From the NCBI GenBank assembly GCA_947490265.1, contig CANLGQ010000004.1, forward strand, positions 1-41,333: a stretch of 41,333 nt of DNA. Reading direction: 5' to 3'. The translations under genes were made by a program, and so were the position numbers. Of this stretch, positions 35,024 to 40,165 are shown piece after piece. A model generated the notes under the pieces. The model was not told where the DNA came from, made no database searches, and saw nothing but the letters and a program-made list of their open reading frames with translations. The DNA is from Pseudomonadota bacterium. GTDB lineage: Bacteria; Myxococcota_A; UBA796; GCA-2862545. Each line of letters starts with the position of its first letter. Positions within the stretch are counted from its first letter, which is position 1.

Positions 35024-35899
35024 ATGATCTTCGCACTCTTCCTGGCCGTTCAGTCCCTCGCCCAGGACCCGACGGCCCCGGCCGGTCGGCCCGGCACGGT
35101 CGCGCCCGACTTCAAGTGGTGGGAGCTCGAGCTCCTCTACGACCAGGGCAAGCACCAGGAGGGCCTCGGCCGAGTGAAGGCCCTCCGCGCCGAAAACCCA
35201 CAAGACGCCGACCTCGCCTGGCTCCAGGTGCGGTTCATGTTCGAGATCGCCGAGGGCGTGGGCCGGCTCGACCCGTCGTTCGACAAGATCGGCTGGTACA
35301 GCGAGATGCTCCGGGTGGCGAACCAAGGTTTGATGCTGGCCCCCGGGCAGCCGCACTTGCTTTATGCGCGGGGCATCGCCGCGGGGCGCCTCGGGACCAC
35401 CAAGGGCGTGTTGGCCTCCCTCGGGAGCGCGAAGTCCATCGAATCCGACTGGCTTCGGGCGGCGAATTCCGGCTTTGCCTACTCCTCGATCGGCGGGCAG
35501 GAGATCCTGCCGTGCGACGCGCACCTCACGCTCGCGATCTTCTATCGGCTGGTTCCCGATTGGTGGATCGTGCAGGTGCTCGCGGGCACGCGCGGCGACC
35601 TGCCCAAGTCGGTGAAGTACGCGCTCGATGCCGACAAGTGCGCCCCAGGGCGGATCTTGACCGTCAAAGAGCTCGGCGTCAGCCAGCTTTGCCTCGGTCA
35701 GGACACCGACGACGAGGCCATGCAGGCCGCCGGCATGGCCACGCTCCGCCGCGCGCTGGCCCTCCCGGCCACCAGCGACCAGACCGACGCCATGGACAAG
35801 CAGCACACCCGGATGTTGCTCGCCGATCCGACCCTCGCGTGCGAATACTCGCGCGACGGGCAGCAAGACCTCGACGAAAGCAAACTGCCGCCGAAGTGA
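35024..35899 (+). CDS. exported TPR protein, RMDN-like
   Basis: 291 residues from ATG 35024, 4 bases after clpB. The N-terminus MIFALFLAVQSLAQDP is a short signal peptide with likely cleavage after SLAQ. The rest is helical with TPR-like repeats: WWELELLYDQGKHQEGLGRV, ADLAWLQVRFMFEIAEG, MLRVANQGLMLAPGQPHLLY, ARGIAAGRLGTTKGVLASLG and SVKYALDADKCAPG. The segment GRLGTTKGVLASLGSAKSI recalls the bacterial relatives of the regulator-of-microtubule-dynamics (RMDN) TPR family. Three Cys (about 165, 207, 223) could form a disulphide in the periplasm. Its stop overlaps the next start (GTGA). It probably serves as a protein-binding partner; its target is unknown. Confidence 0.7.
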   Translation: MIFALFLAVQSLAQDPTAPAGRPGTVAPDFKWWELELLYDQGKHQEGLGRVKALRAENPQDADLAWLQVRFMFEIAEGVGRLDPSFDKIGWYSEMLRVANQGLMLAPGQPHLLYARGIAAGRLGTTKGVLASLGSAKSIESDWLRAANSGFAYSSIGGQEILPCDAHLTLAIFYRLVPDWWIVQVLAGTRGDLPKSVKYALDADKCAPGRILTVKELGVSQLCLGQDTDDEAMQAAGMATLRRALALPATSDQTDAMDKQHTRMLLADPTLACEYSRDGQQDLDESKLPPK

Positions 35900-36930
35900 C
35901 CTCGGGCTTTCTCGTCTCCCCGCGGTGGGACGGCGCGTTCATCCTGGGACCGCCGCTCCTGTGTGCCGCGCTCTCGCTCGCCATCCCGCCGGGGGTCGAG
36001 GGCGGATTCGCCGCTTGGCTGCTCCTCGTCGTCGCGATCGATGTCGCCCACGTGTGGTCCACGCTGTACCGCACCTGGCTCGACCCCGTGGAGCGATCGT
36101 CCCGACAGACCCTCTTGATCGCCACCCCTTTGGTGGCTGCCGCCGGCTGCATCAGCCTGTCGGTCGCGGCGCCCACGTGGTTCTGGACCGCGCTGGCCTA
36201 CCTGGCGGTGTTCCACTTCCTCCGTCAGCCGATCGGCTTTGCCGCGCTCTATCGCCTCCGCGCCGGTCTTCCGCCCCGAGATGCGGAGGCCCGACTCGAG
36301 CGGGTGGCGCTGACCGCCCTCATGCTCGGTCCGGTGATCTGGTGGCACAGTCGCCTGCCTCGGCCCTTCGCATGGTTTACGGCCGATGACTTCCTGGTCG
36401 GCCTCCCGGCGCCAGTCGGCGACGCCGCGCTCGCGGTCGCGGCCGCGCTCGGGATCGCCTGGGCAGCCGCGCGTTGGCGCTCCCGCCGACGGAACCCGGG
36501 TGGCGACCTGTGGGTGTTGGGCACTGCAGCGACGTGGTGGATCGGCATCGTCTTCGCACGGTCTGACCTGGCGTTTACCCTAACGAACGTCGTCGCCCAC
36601 GGGATCCCGTACCTGGCACTCGTCGGGTGGGTCGGAGGGCGCCGGTGGGCCACGGTGCCCCCGGGACCCGCCCGCGCGGCCTGGTTTTCCGGGCCCGGCT
36701 GGCTCGCGTTCGCGATCGTCCCACTGGTCTTCGCGATCGGCGAGGAGTGGCTCTGGGAGGGCCTTGTGTGGGGCGAGAACGCCCTTTCCTCGACCTCCTT
36801 GCGCCTGGCGATCGGGTTCCTGGCCGTGCCCCAGGTCACCCACTACCTCCTCGACGGCTTCCTCTGGAAGCTCGGCCCGTCGAACCCGACGTTGCAGGCG
36901 GCAGTGTCCGGCGCTAGGGGGACCGGGTGA
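35896..36930 (+). CDS. polytopic membrane protein with conserved-looking His motifs
   Basis: 344 residues starting at GTG 35896, overlapping the previous stop. About eight or nine hydrophobic helices are visible. Histidines sit at helix ends in recurring contexts: AIDVAHVWSTLYRTWLDP, LAVFHFLRQPIGFAALYR, VIWWHSRLPRPFAWF, LTNVVAHGIPYLALVGW and VPQVTHYLLDGFLWK. Such a pattern recalls membrane metalloenzymes (desaturase- or Brp/Blh-like), but no family assignment is possible. The gene sits between an exported TPR protein and an exported TldD homologue, with overlapping stop and start codons on both sides, so it is likely part of the same envelope function. No signal peptide beyond the first membrane segment. 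Confidence 0.7.
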   Translation: MTSGFLVSPRWDGAFILGPPLLCAALSLAIPPGVEGGFAAWLLLVVAIDVAHVWSTLYRTWLDPVERSSRQTLLIATPLVAAAGCISLSVAAPTWFWTALAYLAVFHFLRQPIGFAALYRLRAGLPPRDAEARLERVALTALMLGPVIWWHSRLPRPFAWFTADDFLVGLPAPVGDAALAVAAALGIAWAAARWRSRRRNPGGDLWVLGTAATWWIGIVFARSDLAFTLTNVVAHGIPYLALVGWVGGRRWATVPPGPARAAWFSGPGWLAFAIVPLVFAIGEEWLWEGLVWGENALSSTSLRLAIGFLAVPQVTHYLLDGFLWKLGPSNPTLQAAVSGARGTG

Positions 36931-38579
36931 TGCTCCTTTTGACGACGCTGTGCTGGGCCGACGAGCCCGATCCCGTCCTCACCGCCGTCGTGGCCGAGCT
37001 CGACCGCGCCAGCGCTCAATTGGCCGGGATCGACCACCCGCCGTACTACCTCGGCATCGAGGTCACCGAGTCGGAGAGCCTGTCGCTCATGGCGGAAGAC
37101 GGCGCGCTGTACACCGTTCGACCGGGGCATTTCCGCCGGCTCGACGTCGACGCCCGGGTCGGCTCCCCGGCGCTGGACAGCACCCACGCCCTTCGCTCGA
37201 GCACCGACGACAACAACCGGAACGGCCGGAGCCTGACCCTCGGCGGCGACGTGCCGTCGCTCCAACGCGGGTTGTGGCGCGAGATCGACGATAGCGTGCG
37301 CGCGGCCCGGGCCCGGTGGGCCAAGGTGGAAGCCGATCGGCAGACCCTCGTCGCCGAAGACGCAGGGCCGGATCTCGCGCCGCTGACCAGCGTGCCGGTA
37401 TCCCTGGCGCCGCTCCAGCAGCTCGCGTTCGAGGCGGGTCCTTGGGAGGATCGCCTGCGGCGGGCGTCCGCCGTGCTCGCCACCCCGGCGGTCCGCGATG
37501 GGTCGGTCAGCTTGACCGCAGCCGTCGAGACCCGATGGCTCGCGAGCACCGAGGGAGTGCGGATCCGGGATCAAGCGGTCGAGTACCGGCTCGGGGTCAC
37601 CGCCGACACCCTCGCCGCCGACGGCACGGTCATCTCGCTCTACCGCAGCTGGCAAGGCCCCTCCCCGGCCGCCTTGCCCGACGAAGCCGAACTCCTCGCC
37701 GGGGCCCGCGCGCTCGCCGACCAGCTCGCCGCCCTCGACGCCGCCCCGGAGCAAGATCCGTACACCGGCCCCGTCGTCCTCTCAGACCGGGCGGCCGGGG
37801 TGTTCTTCCACGAGATCTTCGGTCATCGGATGGAGGGGCACCGGCTGAAGCGGGTCGACAACGCCCAGACGTTCAAGGACATGGTGGGAGTCGCCGTCCT
37901 CCCGACCTTCCTGTCGGTGGTCGACGACCCCACGCGCGCGGACTTCGCCGGCGTGCCCCTGCGCGGCCACTATCGGTTCGACGACGAGGGCGTGCCGGCC
38001 GAGGCCGTCCCCCTCGTCGACAGCGGGATCCTCAAGGGCTTCCTCCAGAGCCGGTCGCCCCACGAAACCGGCATCCCGAGCAATGGACACGGGCGTGGGG
38101 AACCCGGAAAGCGGGCGGTGGCCCGGCAGGGGAACCTGATCGTCACCGCGTCGCGCTCGGTGACCGAGCCGGCGCTCCGGGCCGCGCTGATCGAGGCGGT
38201 GCGTTCAGCAGGCCTCCCCTATGGCCTGTGGATCGACGAGATCCAGGGCGGGTTCACCTACACCGACCGGGGCATCCCCAACGCGTTTCAGGTCAACGTG
38301 CTCCTCGCCCGCCGGATCTGGGCCGATGGCCGGCCCGACGAGCTGGTGCGGGGGATCGACCTGATCGGGACCCCGCTCGTCGCCTTCTCGCGCATCGCGC
38401 TGGCCGGCCCCACGGCCGAGGTGTTCAACGGGTCGTGTGGCGCCGAGTCCGGGTGGGTGCCGGTGTCGGCCGTCGCCCCGGCCCTTCTGATCAGCCACGT
38501 CGAAACCCAGCGGAAGCGCAAGGGCCAGAACACGCCACCGGTCCTCCCCGGCCCGATCGCCGCCGAGAAAAACCCGTGA
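36930..38579 (+). CDS. TldD-type metalloprotease with signal peptide
   Basis: 549 residues from ATG 36930 (TGATG with the upstream stop); the adjacent GTG 36927 is also possible. TldD/PmbA proteins form heterodimeric zinc peptidases that degrade unfolded peptides and mature RiPPs or CcdA. The zinc site is complete: FFHEIFGHRMEGHRLKR gives HExxxH (His294, Glu295, His299), and NGSCGAESGWVPVS gives the third ligand Cys503, as in E. coli TldD. The N-terminus MLLLTTLCWADEPDP looks like a short cleavable signal peptide, unlike cytosolic TldD, and the first 270 residues are longer than usual with an inserted acidic/polar region. It is coupled with the TldE-like gene by GTGA. Extracytoplasmic location is inferred. 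Confidence 0.85.
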   Translation: MLLLTTLCWADEPDPVLTAVVAELDRASAQLAGIDHPPYYLGIEVTESESLSLMAEDGALYTVRPGHFRRLDVDARVGSPALDSTHALRSSTDDNNRNGRSLTLGGDVPSLQRGLWREIDDSVRAARARWAKVEADRQTLVAEDAGPDLAPLTSVPVSLAPLQQLAFEAGPWEDRLRRASAVLATPAVRDGSVSLTAAVETRWLASTEGVRIRDQAVEYRLGVTADTLAADGTVISLYRSWQGPSPAALPDEAELLAGARALADQLAALDAAPEQDPYTGPVVLSDRAAGVFFHEIFGHRMEGHRLKRVDNAQTFKDMVGVAVLPTFLSVVDDPTRADFAGVPLRGHYRFDDEGVPAEAVPLVDSGILKGFLQSRSPHETGIPSNGHGRGEPGKRAVARQGNLIVTASRSVTEPALRAALIEAVRSAGLPYGLWIDEIQGGFTYTDRGIPNAFQVNVLLARRIWADGRPDELVRGIDLIGTPLVAFSRIALAGPTAEVFNGSCGAESGWVPVSAVAPALLISHVETQRKRKGQNTPPVLPGPIAAEKNP

Positions 38580-40165
38580 TCGCGATCCTCTCGACGCTGG
38601 CCTGGGGGGGCGACGTCCTCCCCGAGCGCCTCGCCCACTGGGCGGAGATCGCCACCCACGACCTCGCGATCGACGAGATCCACCCCTATCGCGCGATCCT
38701 GCTCACCGACGACGTCGAGTCCTGGCGCGTCGAGGCCGAGTTCGGCTTCCTGATCTCCGAGGGCGGTGGCCGCAGCCGGCCCACCCGCGTCGAGGTGATC
38801 CTCGGCGACGACACCCTGTCGTCCGCCCGGTTTCGCGGGGGTCGCACGGTGGCGTCCCCCTCGCTCCCGATCGACGACCTGGCGCTGGCGATCGACCGCG
38901 ACCTGTGGCTCTCGACCGACGCAAGCTTCAAGGGCGCCGTCCAGCAGCTCGAGCTGAAGCGACAGGCGGTTGCTCAGCTCGGAAGCCCCTATCCACCGGA
39001 TCGCACTGCAGCCCTCCCGGTGGTTTCCGAGCCCGTCGTCCCGGTGGTCCCCCCCGACGCAGCGCTCCTGAGGCAGGTCGCCCTCGGGGGTTCGGCGCGC
39101 TTCGCCGCCCATCCCGGGCTGCGGGGTGGGCGCGTGGAGGCGTTCGCCAGCAGCGGGCGGGCGATCCTCGCGACCTCAGACGGCACGCGGGTGATCACCC
39201 CGCAGGGCTACGTCACGGTCTACGCGTGGTGCGATGTGCAGCGCGAAGACGGCGTCGCCCCGTACGCGTCTCGCCAGTGGGTGGCGCGAACCCCGGCCGA
39301 CCTCCCGTCGATCGCGGTGATCAACGCCGAGCTCGACGCGCTGGCCGAGAGCGTACTCCGGCGCGCCCAGGCGCCCATCGTGGACTACTACGAAGGTCCG
39401 GTTGTTTTCGAGGGTCAGGCCGCCGCGGCGCTGTTCCGGTCGCTGGTCGTCCCGGAGATCGCCGGAACCCCGCCGGAACCCGCCCCCGGCCGCACCTATG
39501 CCCAGCTCACCCGCACCGGACCGCGGGTCGGGCGCCAGCTCCTCCCGGCGGGCTGGCGGGTCGAGGACGATCCCGAGCGCTCGCCGTTCGCGCCCGACAC
39601 CGACCGGCAGGGGGTCCCGACCGGCCGGGTCTCCCTGATCGAGAATGGCAAGGTCGATCACCTGCTCATGAACGACGTCCCCCGAGCGGATCTCTCGGGT
39701 TCGACGGGCAATGCCCGCGGCTACTCCGGCGATGCGTGGAGCGCCCGCCCGTGGCATCTGGTGGTCGCGCCGGCGAAAGACCTGTCCGACCCGGCTTTCG
39801 ACAAAGCGGTGCACCGCGCCCAGGTCGCCGCAGGGCTCGACCGCGTGCTGATCGTCCGCCGGCTGACCCGCCAGGCCGGCGAAGGCGCGCTCCCCTCGGT
39901 GGCCGACGCCGTGTGGCGGCGCGCCGACGGGACGGAAGAGCCCGTCCTGACCCTGGAGTTCCAGGGGGCCGACCGCCGCTTGCTGCGGGACATCAGCGCC
40001 GCGAGCGGCACGCACACCGGGACCTGGCTGCAAGGGGTCAACGCCACCACGAACGGGCTCCCGACCGGGAGCACCACCCCCGAGCGGATCCTGGTCACCC
40101 AGTTGGAGGCCGTCTTCCCTGGAACCTCCTCAGAACCAGCGCTCTACCCCCCACCGACCCGCTAG
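38576..40165 (+). CDS. TldE/PmbA-like partner protein lacking zinc ligands, exported
   Basis: 529 residues from GTG 38576, overlapping the TldD gene stop. It aligns in layout with its neighbour: a signal-like start (MIAILSTLAWGGDVLPERL), a mixed N-terminal half, and a PmbA-like C-terminal half beginning at YYEGPVVFEGQAAAALFRSL. At the place of HExxxH the sequence is LFRSLVVPEIAG, without His, and no terminal Cys ligand is seen, as in TldE (PmbA), the non-catalytic subunit. GRVSLIENGKVDHLLMNDVP and GNARGYSGDAWSARP correspond to TldD-family C-terminal strands and the peptide-binding strip. It is most likely the partner of the preceding protein in a heterodimer. It ends 16 bases from the convergent hydratase gene. 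Confidence 0.78.
   Translation: MIAILSTLAWGGDVLPERLAHWAEIATHDLAIDEIHPYRAILLTDDVESWRVEAEFGFLISEGGGRSRPTRVEVILGDDTLSSARFRGGRTVASPSLPIDDLALAIDRDLWLSTDASFKGAVQQLELKRQAVAQLGSPYPPDRTAALPVVSEPVVPVVPPDAALLRQVALGGSARFAAHPGLRGGRVEAFASSGRAILATSDGTRVITPQGYVTVYAWCDVQREDGVAPYASRQWVARTPADLPSIAVINAELDALAESVLRRAQAPIVDYYEGPVVFEGQAAAALFRSLVVPEIAGTPPEPAPGRTYAQLTRTGPRVGRQLLPAGWRVEDDPERSPFAPDTDRQGVPTGRVSLIENGKVDHLLMNDVPRADLSGSTGNARGYSGDAWSARPWHLVVAPAKDLSDPAFDKAVHRAQVAAGLDRVLIVRRLTRQAGEGALPSVADAVWRRADGTEEPVLTLEFQGADRRLLRDISAASGTHTGTWLQGVNATTNGLPTGSTTPERILVTQLEAVFPGTSSEPALYPPPTR

Follow-up and report, generated by a model that had tools for sequence, protein, structure and literature searches.

A putative exported TldD-fold zinc peptidase pair whose ligand-less subunit probably arose separately from TldE

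Introduction

Two adjacent genes in a 41,333-nucleotide stretch of contig CANLGQ010000004.1 (hereafter the window) encode what we consider likely to be an exported, heterodimeric TldD-fold zinc peptidase that serves general clearance of periplasmic peptides and that arose by a duplication within an exported lineage. We call the zinc-bearing subunit D' and its ligand-less partner E'. The reference for such enzymes is E. coli TldD/E, a hollow heterodimeric shell with a single zinc site and a substrate cleft, in which Cys454 of TldD is a zinc ligand; the function of TldD/TldE has been called elusive despite wide conservation (PMC5810440). Our search of open-access papers found no published description of an exported TldD/TldE. 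Because signal-like N-termini on both proteins, an adjacent gene pair and a CGAESG motif in D' together set these proteins apart, we propose on the basis of their sequences that D'/E' is a distinct subfamily.

Gene pair, zinc site and fold

Both open reading frames were located where an earlier reading of the sequence alone had placed a TldD/TldE pair. The features of the locus are as follows.

36930..38579, + strand: D', putative exported TldD-like zinc metallopeptidase subunit, 549 aa (open reading frame, orthologues, AlphaFold2 model and fold match); an alternative GTG start at 36927 lies directly before the ATG
36930..36959, + strand: signal-like segment of D', MLLLTTLCWA, short and charge-free, followed by DEPDP, with cleavage guessed before DEP
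37770..38504, + strand: PmbA/TldD C-terminal domain of D', PF19289 (Pfam)
37809..37826, + strand: HEIFGH zinc-binding/catalytic motif of D', residues 294-299, with H294, E295 and H299 (alignment)
38436..38438, + strand: Cys503 of D', within the subfamily motif CGAESG (NGSCGAESG), third zinc ligand as judged from homology with Cys454 of E. coli TldD
38576..40165, + strand: E', putative exported ligand-less partner subunit, 529 aa (open reading frame, pairing, AlphaFold2 model and fold match); its GTG start overlaps the TGA stop of D'
38576..38608, + strand: signal-like segment of E', MIAILSTLAWG, short and charge-free, then GD; an OmpA-domain protein of the source genome has the comparable MIALLALTAFGQ
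39398..40009, + strand: PmbA/TldD C-terminal domain of E', PF19289 (Pfam)
39437..39454, + strand: where the zinc motif has been lost from E', RSLVVP replacing HExxxH (alignment with D')

Both proteins belong to the TldD/PmbA superfamily, as they have the two-domain TldD fold and match PF19289 above its curated cut-off of 22 bits (D', 96.3 bits, E 1.9e-27; E', 48.3 bits, E 8.9e-13). PF19289 was the only domain recognized by Pfam: the N-terminal domain PF01523 gave no match above cut-off in either protein, and D' and E' are therefore diverged members of the family. A search of NCBIfam likewise returned no equivalog above cut-off, NF008006 scoring 55.7 bits on D' against a cut-off of 513 and nothing being returned for E'. 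AlphaFold2, run on alignments of 36 D' and 28 E' sequences, gave models with pLDDT values of 88.5 and 90.5, respectively, with the first ten residues of both at low confidence (48 for residues 1-10 of D'). In Foldseek searches of the PDB, only TldD, TldE and PmbA entries were significant and the models matched them along their full length; the best match of D' was E. coli TldD (E 4e-32, TM 0.77 by target), and E' matched TldD, TldE and PmbA entries with E 1.5e-23.

The full TldD zinc site that had been assigned to the first protein was borne out by the alignment, in which HEIFGH and Cys503 supply the HExxxH and C-terminal Cys that characterize canonical TldD. H294, E295, G298 and H299 were invariant across 36 aligned D' proteins, as were all the zinc residues (H, E, H and C) in the aligned D' proteins. 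The second protein was also as described, with a TldD fold, RSLVVP in place of the motif and no Cys at the third-ligand position, and neither the zinc residues nor an active-site HExxxH occurred in any E'. Judged from the genes alone, E' thus resembles canonical TldE/PmbA in being without zinc ligands and encoded beside a zinc-bearing subunit. Mean column identity was 36% for E' versus 50% for D', so that a loose or different pairing is possible.

The surroundings of the zinc site differ between the two families. The motif of D' reads HE[IV]xGHRxEGHR...CGAESG, whereas that of TldD reads HEA[IV]GHGxE[AG]DF...CGK[DE]GQ. In E. coli TldD, Lys456 ties a clamp to Glu270 and Asp272 (PMC5810440); this tie is lost in D', where Ala takes the place of the Lys and His, in nearly all cases, that of the Asp. 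Arg300, Glu302 and Glu506 were invariant in the D' alignment. Separately, five other TldD-like proteins in our collection (L060, L075, L076, L068 and L079) carry HES motifs, and their alignment shows no Cys where the third ligand usually lies.

Putative N-terminal export signals

Both proteins begin, as had been noticed, with hydrophobic signal-like segments; these are only 10-11 residues long and contain no basic residue, which is unusual but does not look like chance. A rule-based scan that considered every candidate start codon found signal-like N-termini in 35/41 D and 27/34 E proteins of the exported type, compared with 5/24 D (four of them twin-arginine) and 0/13 E among canonical proteins. 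Of the D'/E' proteins missed, several were truncated, had no start codon in frame or had been given a late domain boundary. Among named relatives, almost all N-termini were Sec-, Tat- or lipoprotein-like, including a twin-arginine-like N-terminus on an Acidobacteriota E' (KLSRRRWLALLGG) and a lipobox on the Nannocystis D'. Orthologues lacking the hydrophobic N-termini would have spoken against export, and most relatives were found to keep them on both subunits. In addition, OmpA-domain proteins of the same genome start with the same kind of segment (MIALLALTAFGQDAA, MIASAMAAMAWAGPE). Because the segments are conserved across phyla, contrast with canonical proteins in the scan and resemble those of the OmpA-domain proteins, we infer that they are real export signals. 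Very short, charge-free signal-like N-termini were seen to recur in the genome, at 35027-35899 of the window and in L093 and L096 (MIFALFLAVQSLAQDP; MIALLALTAFGQ; MIASAMAAMAWAG).

A genome-wide search for a second, cytosolic pair recovered a canonical TldD/TldE without signals on contig 108. The proposed export of D' and E' is in keeping both with this separate leaderless pair and with signal-like or lipobox N-termini kept across phyla. The source genome, which is 77.5% complete, also holds a second pair of the exported type on contig 16; a further PF19289 protein on its contig 160 (L083) has no HExxxH and no obvious signal.

Alternatively, the hydrophobic stretches could be leaders that stay in the cytosol or could reflect wrongly assigned starts, in which case neither protein would be exported; the shortness of the window segments and their want of a basic residue are in favor of this reading. 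Across phyla, however, such segments are found on both subunits, whether of Sec, Tat-like or lipoprotein type; comparable ones occur on OmpA-family proteins of the source genome, and canonical TldE has none (0/13), so we regard a cytosolic location as quite unlikely.

Some canonical-type TldD proteins of related genomes (L053, L055, L068 and L076) resemble D' in being TldD-type with export-like, here twin-arginine, N-termini. Unlike D', they are recognized by PF01523 and, where placed in the tree, fall with canonical TldD. At least one partner, L077 beside L053, is signal-less, which would be consistent with export of the complex in folded form.

Origin of the ligand-less subunit

To place D' and E' we constructed an 84-sequence tree and then a careful tree of 49 sequences. 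The larger tree contained four groups (D', E', TldD and TldE), with D' and E' joined against the canonical pair, and the 49-sequence tree separated exported from canonical proteins at 100/100. The same split was obtained at 100 from each of the N-terminal and C-terminal halves. Forcing TldD and D' together in the 49-sequence tree lowered the log-likelihood by 72.9 and was rejected (AU p=2.5e-5), and this grouping was rejected again on the C-terminal domain without the ligand columns (AU p=1.1e-4). Profile comparison by hhalign gave scores of 688 for D'-E', 407 for TldD-TldE, 271 for D'-TldD, 167 for E'-TldD and 150 for E'-TldE. By phylogeny, then, D' falls outside canonical TldD and E' outside canonical TldE/PmbA, E' being the sister of D'. 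On the C-terminal domain, the exported clade attached, though not firmly, beside a zinc-bearing TldD (98/92; AU p 0.09), and long branches separate the four groups.

These sequence comparisons indicate that D' and E' are sisters of each other and not of TldD and TldE, respectively. Since, moreover, the TldD+D' grouping was rejected, the ligand-less partner probably arose twice, the simplest reading being that duplication happened twice independently and that one copy lost its zinc ligands each time. Of the claim that the window holds a TldD/TldE pair, the division into a zinc-bearing and a ligand-less subunit therefore stands, but the equation of E' with an exported TldE does not, because phylogeny and profiles join D' and E'. 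The comparison with solved structures leads to the same distinction: D'/E' share the fold of E. coli TldD/TldE (5NJ5-5NJF; PF01523/PF19290/PF19289) over their whole length, together with one subunit bearing HExxxH and a C-terminal Cys and a second one that is ligand-less, but they have signal-like N-termini, an N-terminal domain that PF01523 does not recognize and, in E', a partner of apparently separate origin. Similarly, PmbA/TldE proteins solved alone (1VL4, 3QTD, 3TV9, 1VPB and 6J6A) have the fold of E' and no zinc ligands, but E' groups with D' and is not their sister.

If the cytosolic TldD/TldE operon had simply been copied and fitted with signal peptides, making D' the exported form of TldD and E' that of TldE, the common gene order, the zinc-bearing/ligand-less division and the fold would be accounted for. 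This origin requires, however, that D' group with TldD and E' with TldE, and the two AU tests and the hhalign scores given above speak against this; we judged such a simple copy very unlikely.

Distribution and solo relatives

Among the genomes in the window's own set of relatives, 36/38 contained D'. In wider samples, D' or a solo relative occurred in 66/141 genomes drawn from the phylum and in 7/60 Acidobacteriota genomes. The subfamily occurs in Myxococcota (including Nannocystis), Planctomycetota, Acidobacteriota, Elusimicrobiota and Fibrobacterota. E' directly followed D' in 20/20 named relatives, one of which is a fusion (L021, 6722-10213, D' and E' as one open reading frame). Two planctomycete genomes have the exported pair only and no canonical pair. 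A record titled Klebsiella pneumoniae (L003) grouped with the window's genus, and its title looks wrong.

In 20 genomes of the phylum outside the window's order, we found solo zinc-bearing relatives with no E' adjacent or anywhere in the genome (L109, L110, L112, L114-L125, L127-L129, L131 and L132). They share with D' the zinc site, CGAESG, a mostly signal- or lipobox-bearing N-terminus and a place in the exported clade, and their motifs read HE[TAV]xGH and CGAESG; no signal was seen in L121 and L123. They differ from the D'/E' pair in that their genomes are without E' and in forming a third branch: twelve solo proteins placed in the tree made up a group beside D' and E' within the exported clade. 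A solo+D' grouping had support of 60 in a quick tree, and the arrangement with D' and E' together and the solo proteins outside had a likelihood 6.1 higher (p-AU 0.62). Judged from these sequences, the solo forms perhaps represent the state before duplication. Presumably they work without a pseudo-subunit, perhaps as homodimers.

Proposed function

The anatomy of D'/E' is the same as that of E. coli TldD/E and points to a peptidase that works on flexible peptides in the envelope; by this analogy a periplasmic or envelope zinc peptidase heterodimer that cuts such peptides is the most likely reading. In the scheme that we favor, each subunit would leave the cytosol by its own N-terminal signal, and the two would pair in the envelope into a hollow shell like that of TldD/TldE. 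D' would provide the only zinc site, formed by the two His of HExxxH and the Cys, and would cut flexible or unfolded peptides that enter the shell, with E' as a structural pseudo-subunit. The role would most likely be general clearance or trimming of periplasmic peptides rather than maturation of one RiPP; clearing of periplasmic peptides had been proposed from the sequence and remains plausible. As for its history, the family would go back to a zinc-bearing TldD-like protein; a duplication within the exported lineage, distinct from the one behind TldD and TldE, would have been followed by loss of the ligands in one copy.

The suggestion that the pair processes secreted RiPPs found no support. 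E. coli TldD/E removes the leader of the RiPP microcin B17 (PMC5810440), and a counterpart that removes leaders outside the cytosol is conceivable. Nevertheless, YcaO was present in only 1/36 relatives as against D' in 36/38; gene-neighborhood clustering detected no conserved partner outside the D'/E' pair, and a Pfam search of ten neighbors revealed unrelated functions, none of them RiPP-like. The near-absence of YcaO and the unconserved neighbors argue against azole-type RiPP maturation, and the lack of conserved neighbors also implies that no dedicated substrate gene lies next door. With YcaO and the immediate neighbors as the evidence examined, we consider a RiPP maturation protease highly improbable. 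PADLOC gave no match.

An extracellular or vesicle-borne digestive peptidase, used for nutrition or predation instead of periplasmic housekeeping, is a further candidate. One "peptidase U62" of Myxococcus xanthus (MXAN_2519) appears among the proteins enriched in outer-membrane vesicles and was also found in membrane fractions (PMC4158809), and the Nannocystis protein and many solo relatives have lipobox N-termini. MXAN_2519 is, however, only a possible member of the subfamily, and the occurrence of the family in Planctomycetota, Acidobacteriota and Elusimicrobiota points to a more general role. A digestive function thus seems unlikely to us, and we retain a periplasmic clearance peptidase as the preferred reading.

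Conclusion

On balance, we lean toward regarding D'/E' as a separate envelope system of the TldD fold. The heterodimer, one subunit active and one inactive, would have arisen independently of its cytosolic counterpart TldD/TldE; its ancestor would have been an exported zinc-bearing protein of the solo type, a form that survives in related families. The family and the fold were already known; the interest lies in the export that the N-termini suggest, in a ligand-less subunit that probably originated independently and in the occurrence of solo as well as paired forms. Since one phylum contains both forms, comparing them is a natural way to ask why ligand-less partners evolve. An envelope branch of TldD, if true, would open a second route to the substrates of these peptidases, one available in bacteria that can be cultured, Nannocystis among them. 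A periplasmic cousin of the cytosolic peptide-cutting cage may have gone unstudied.
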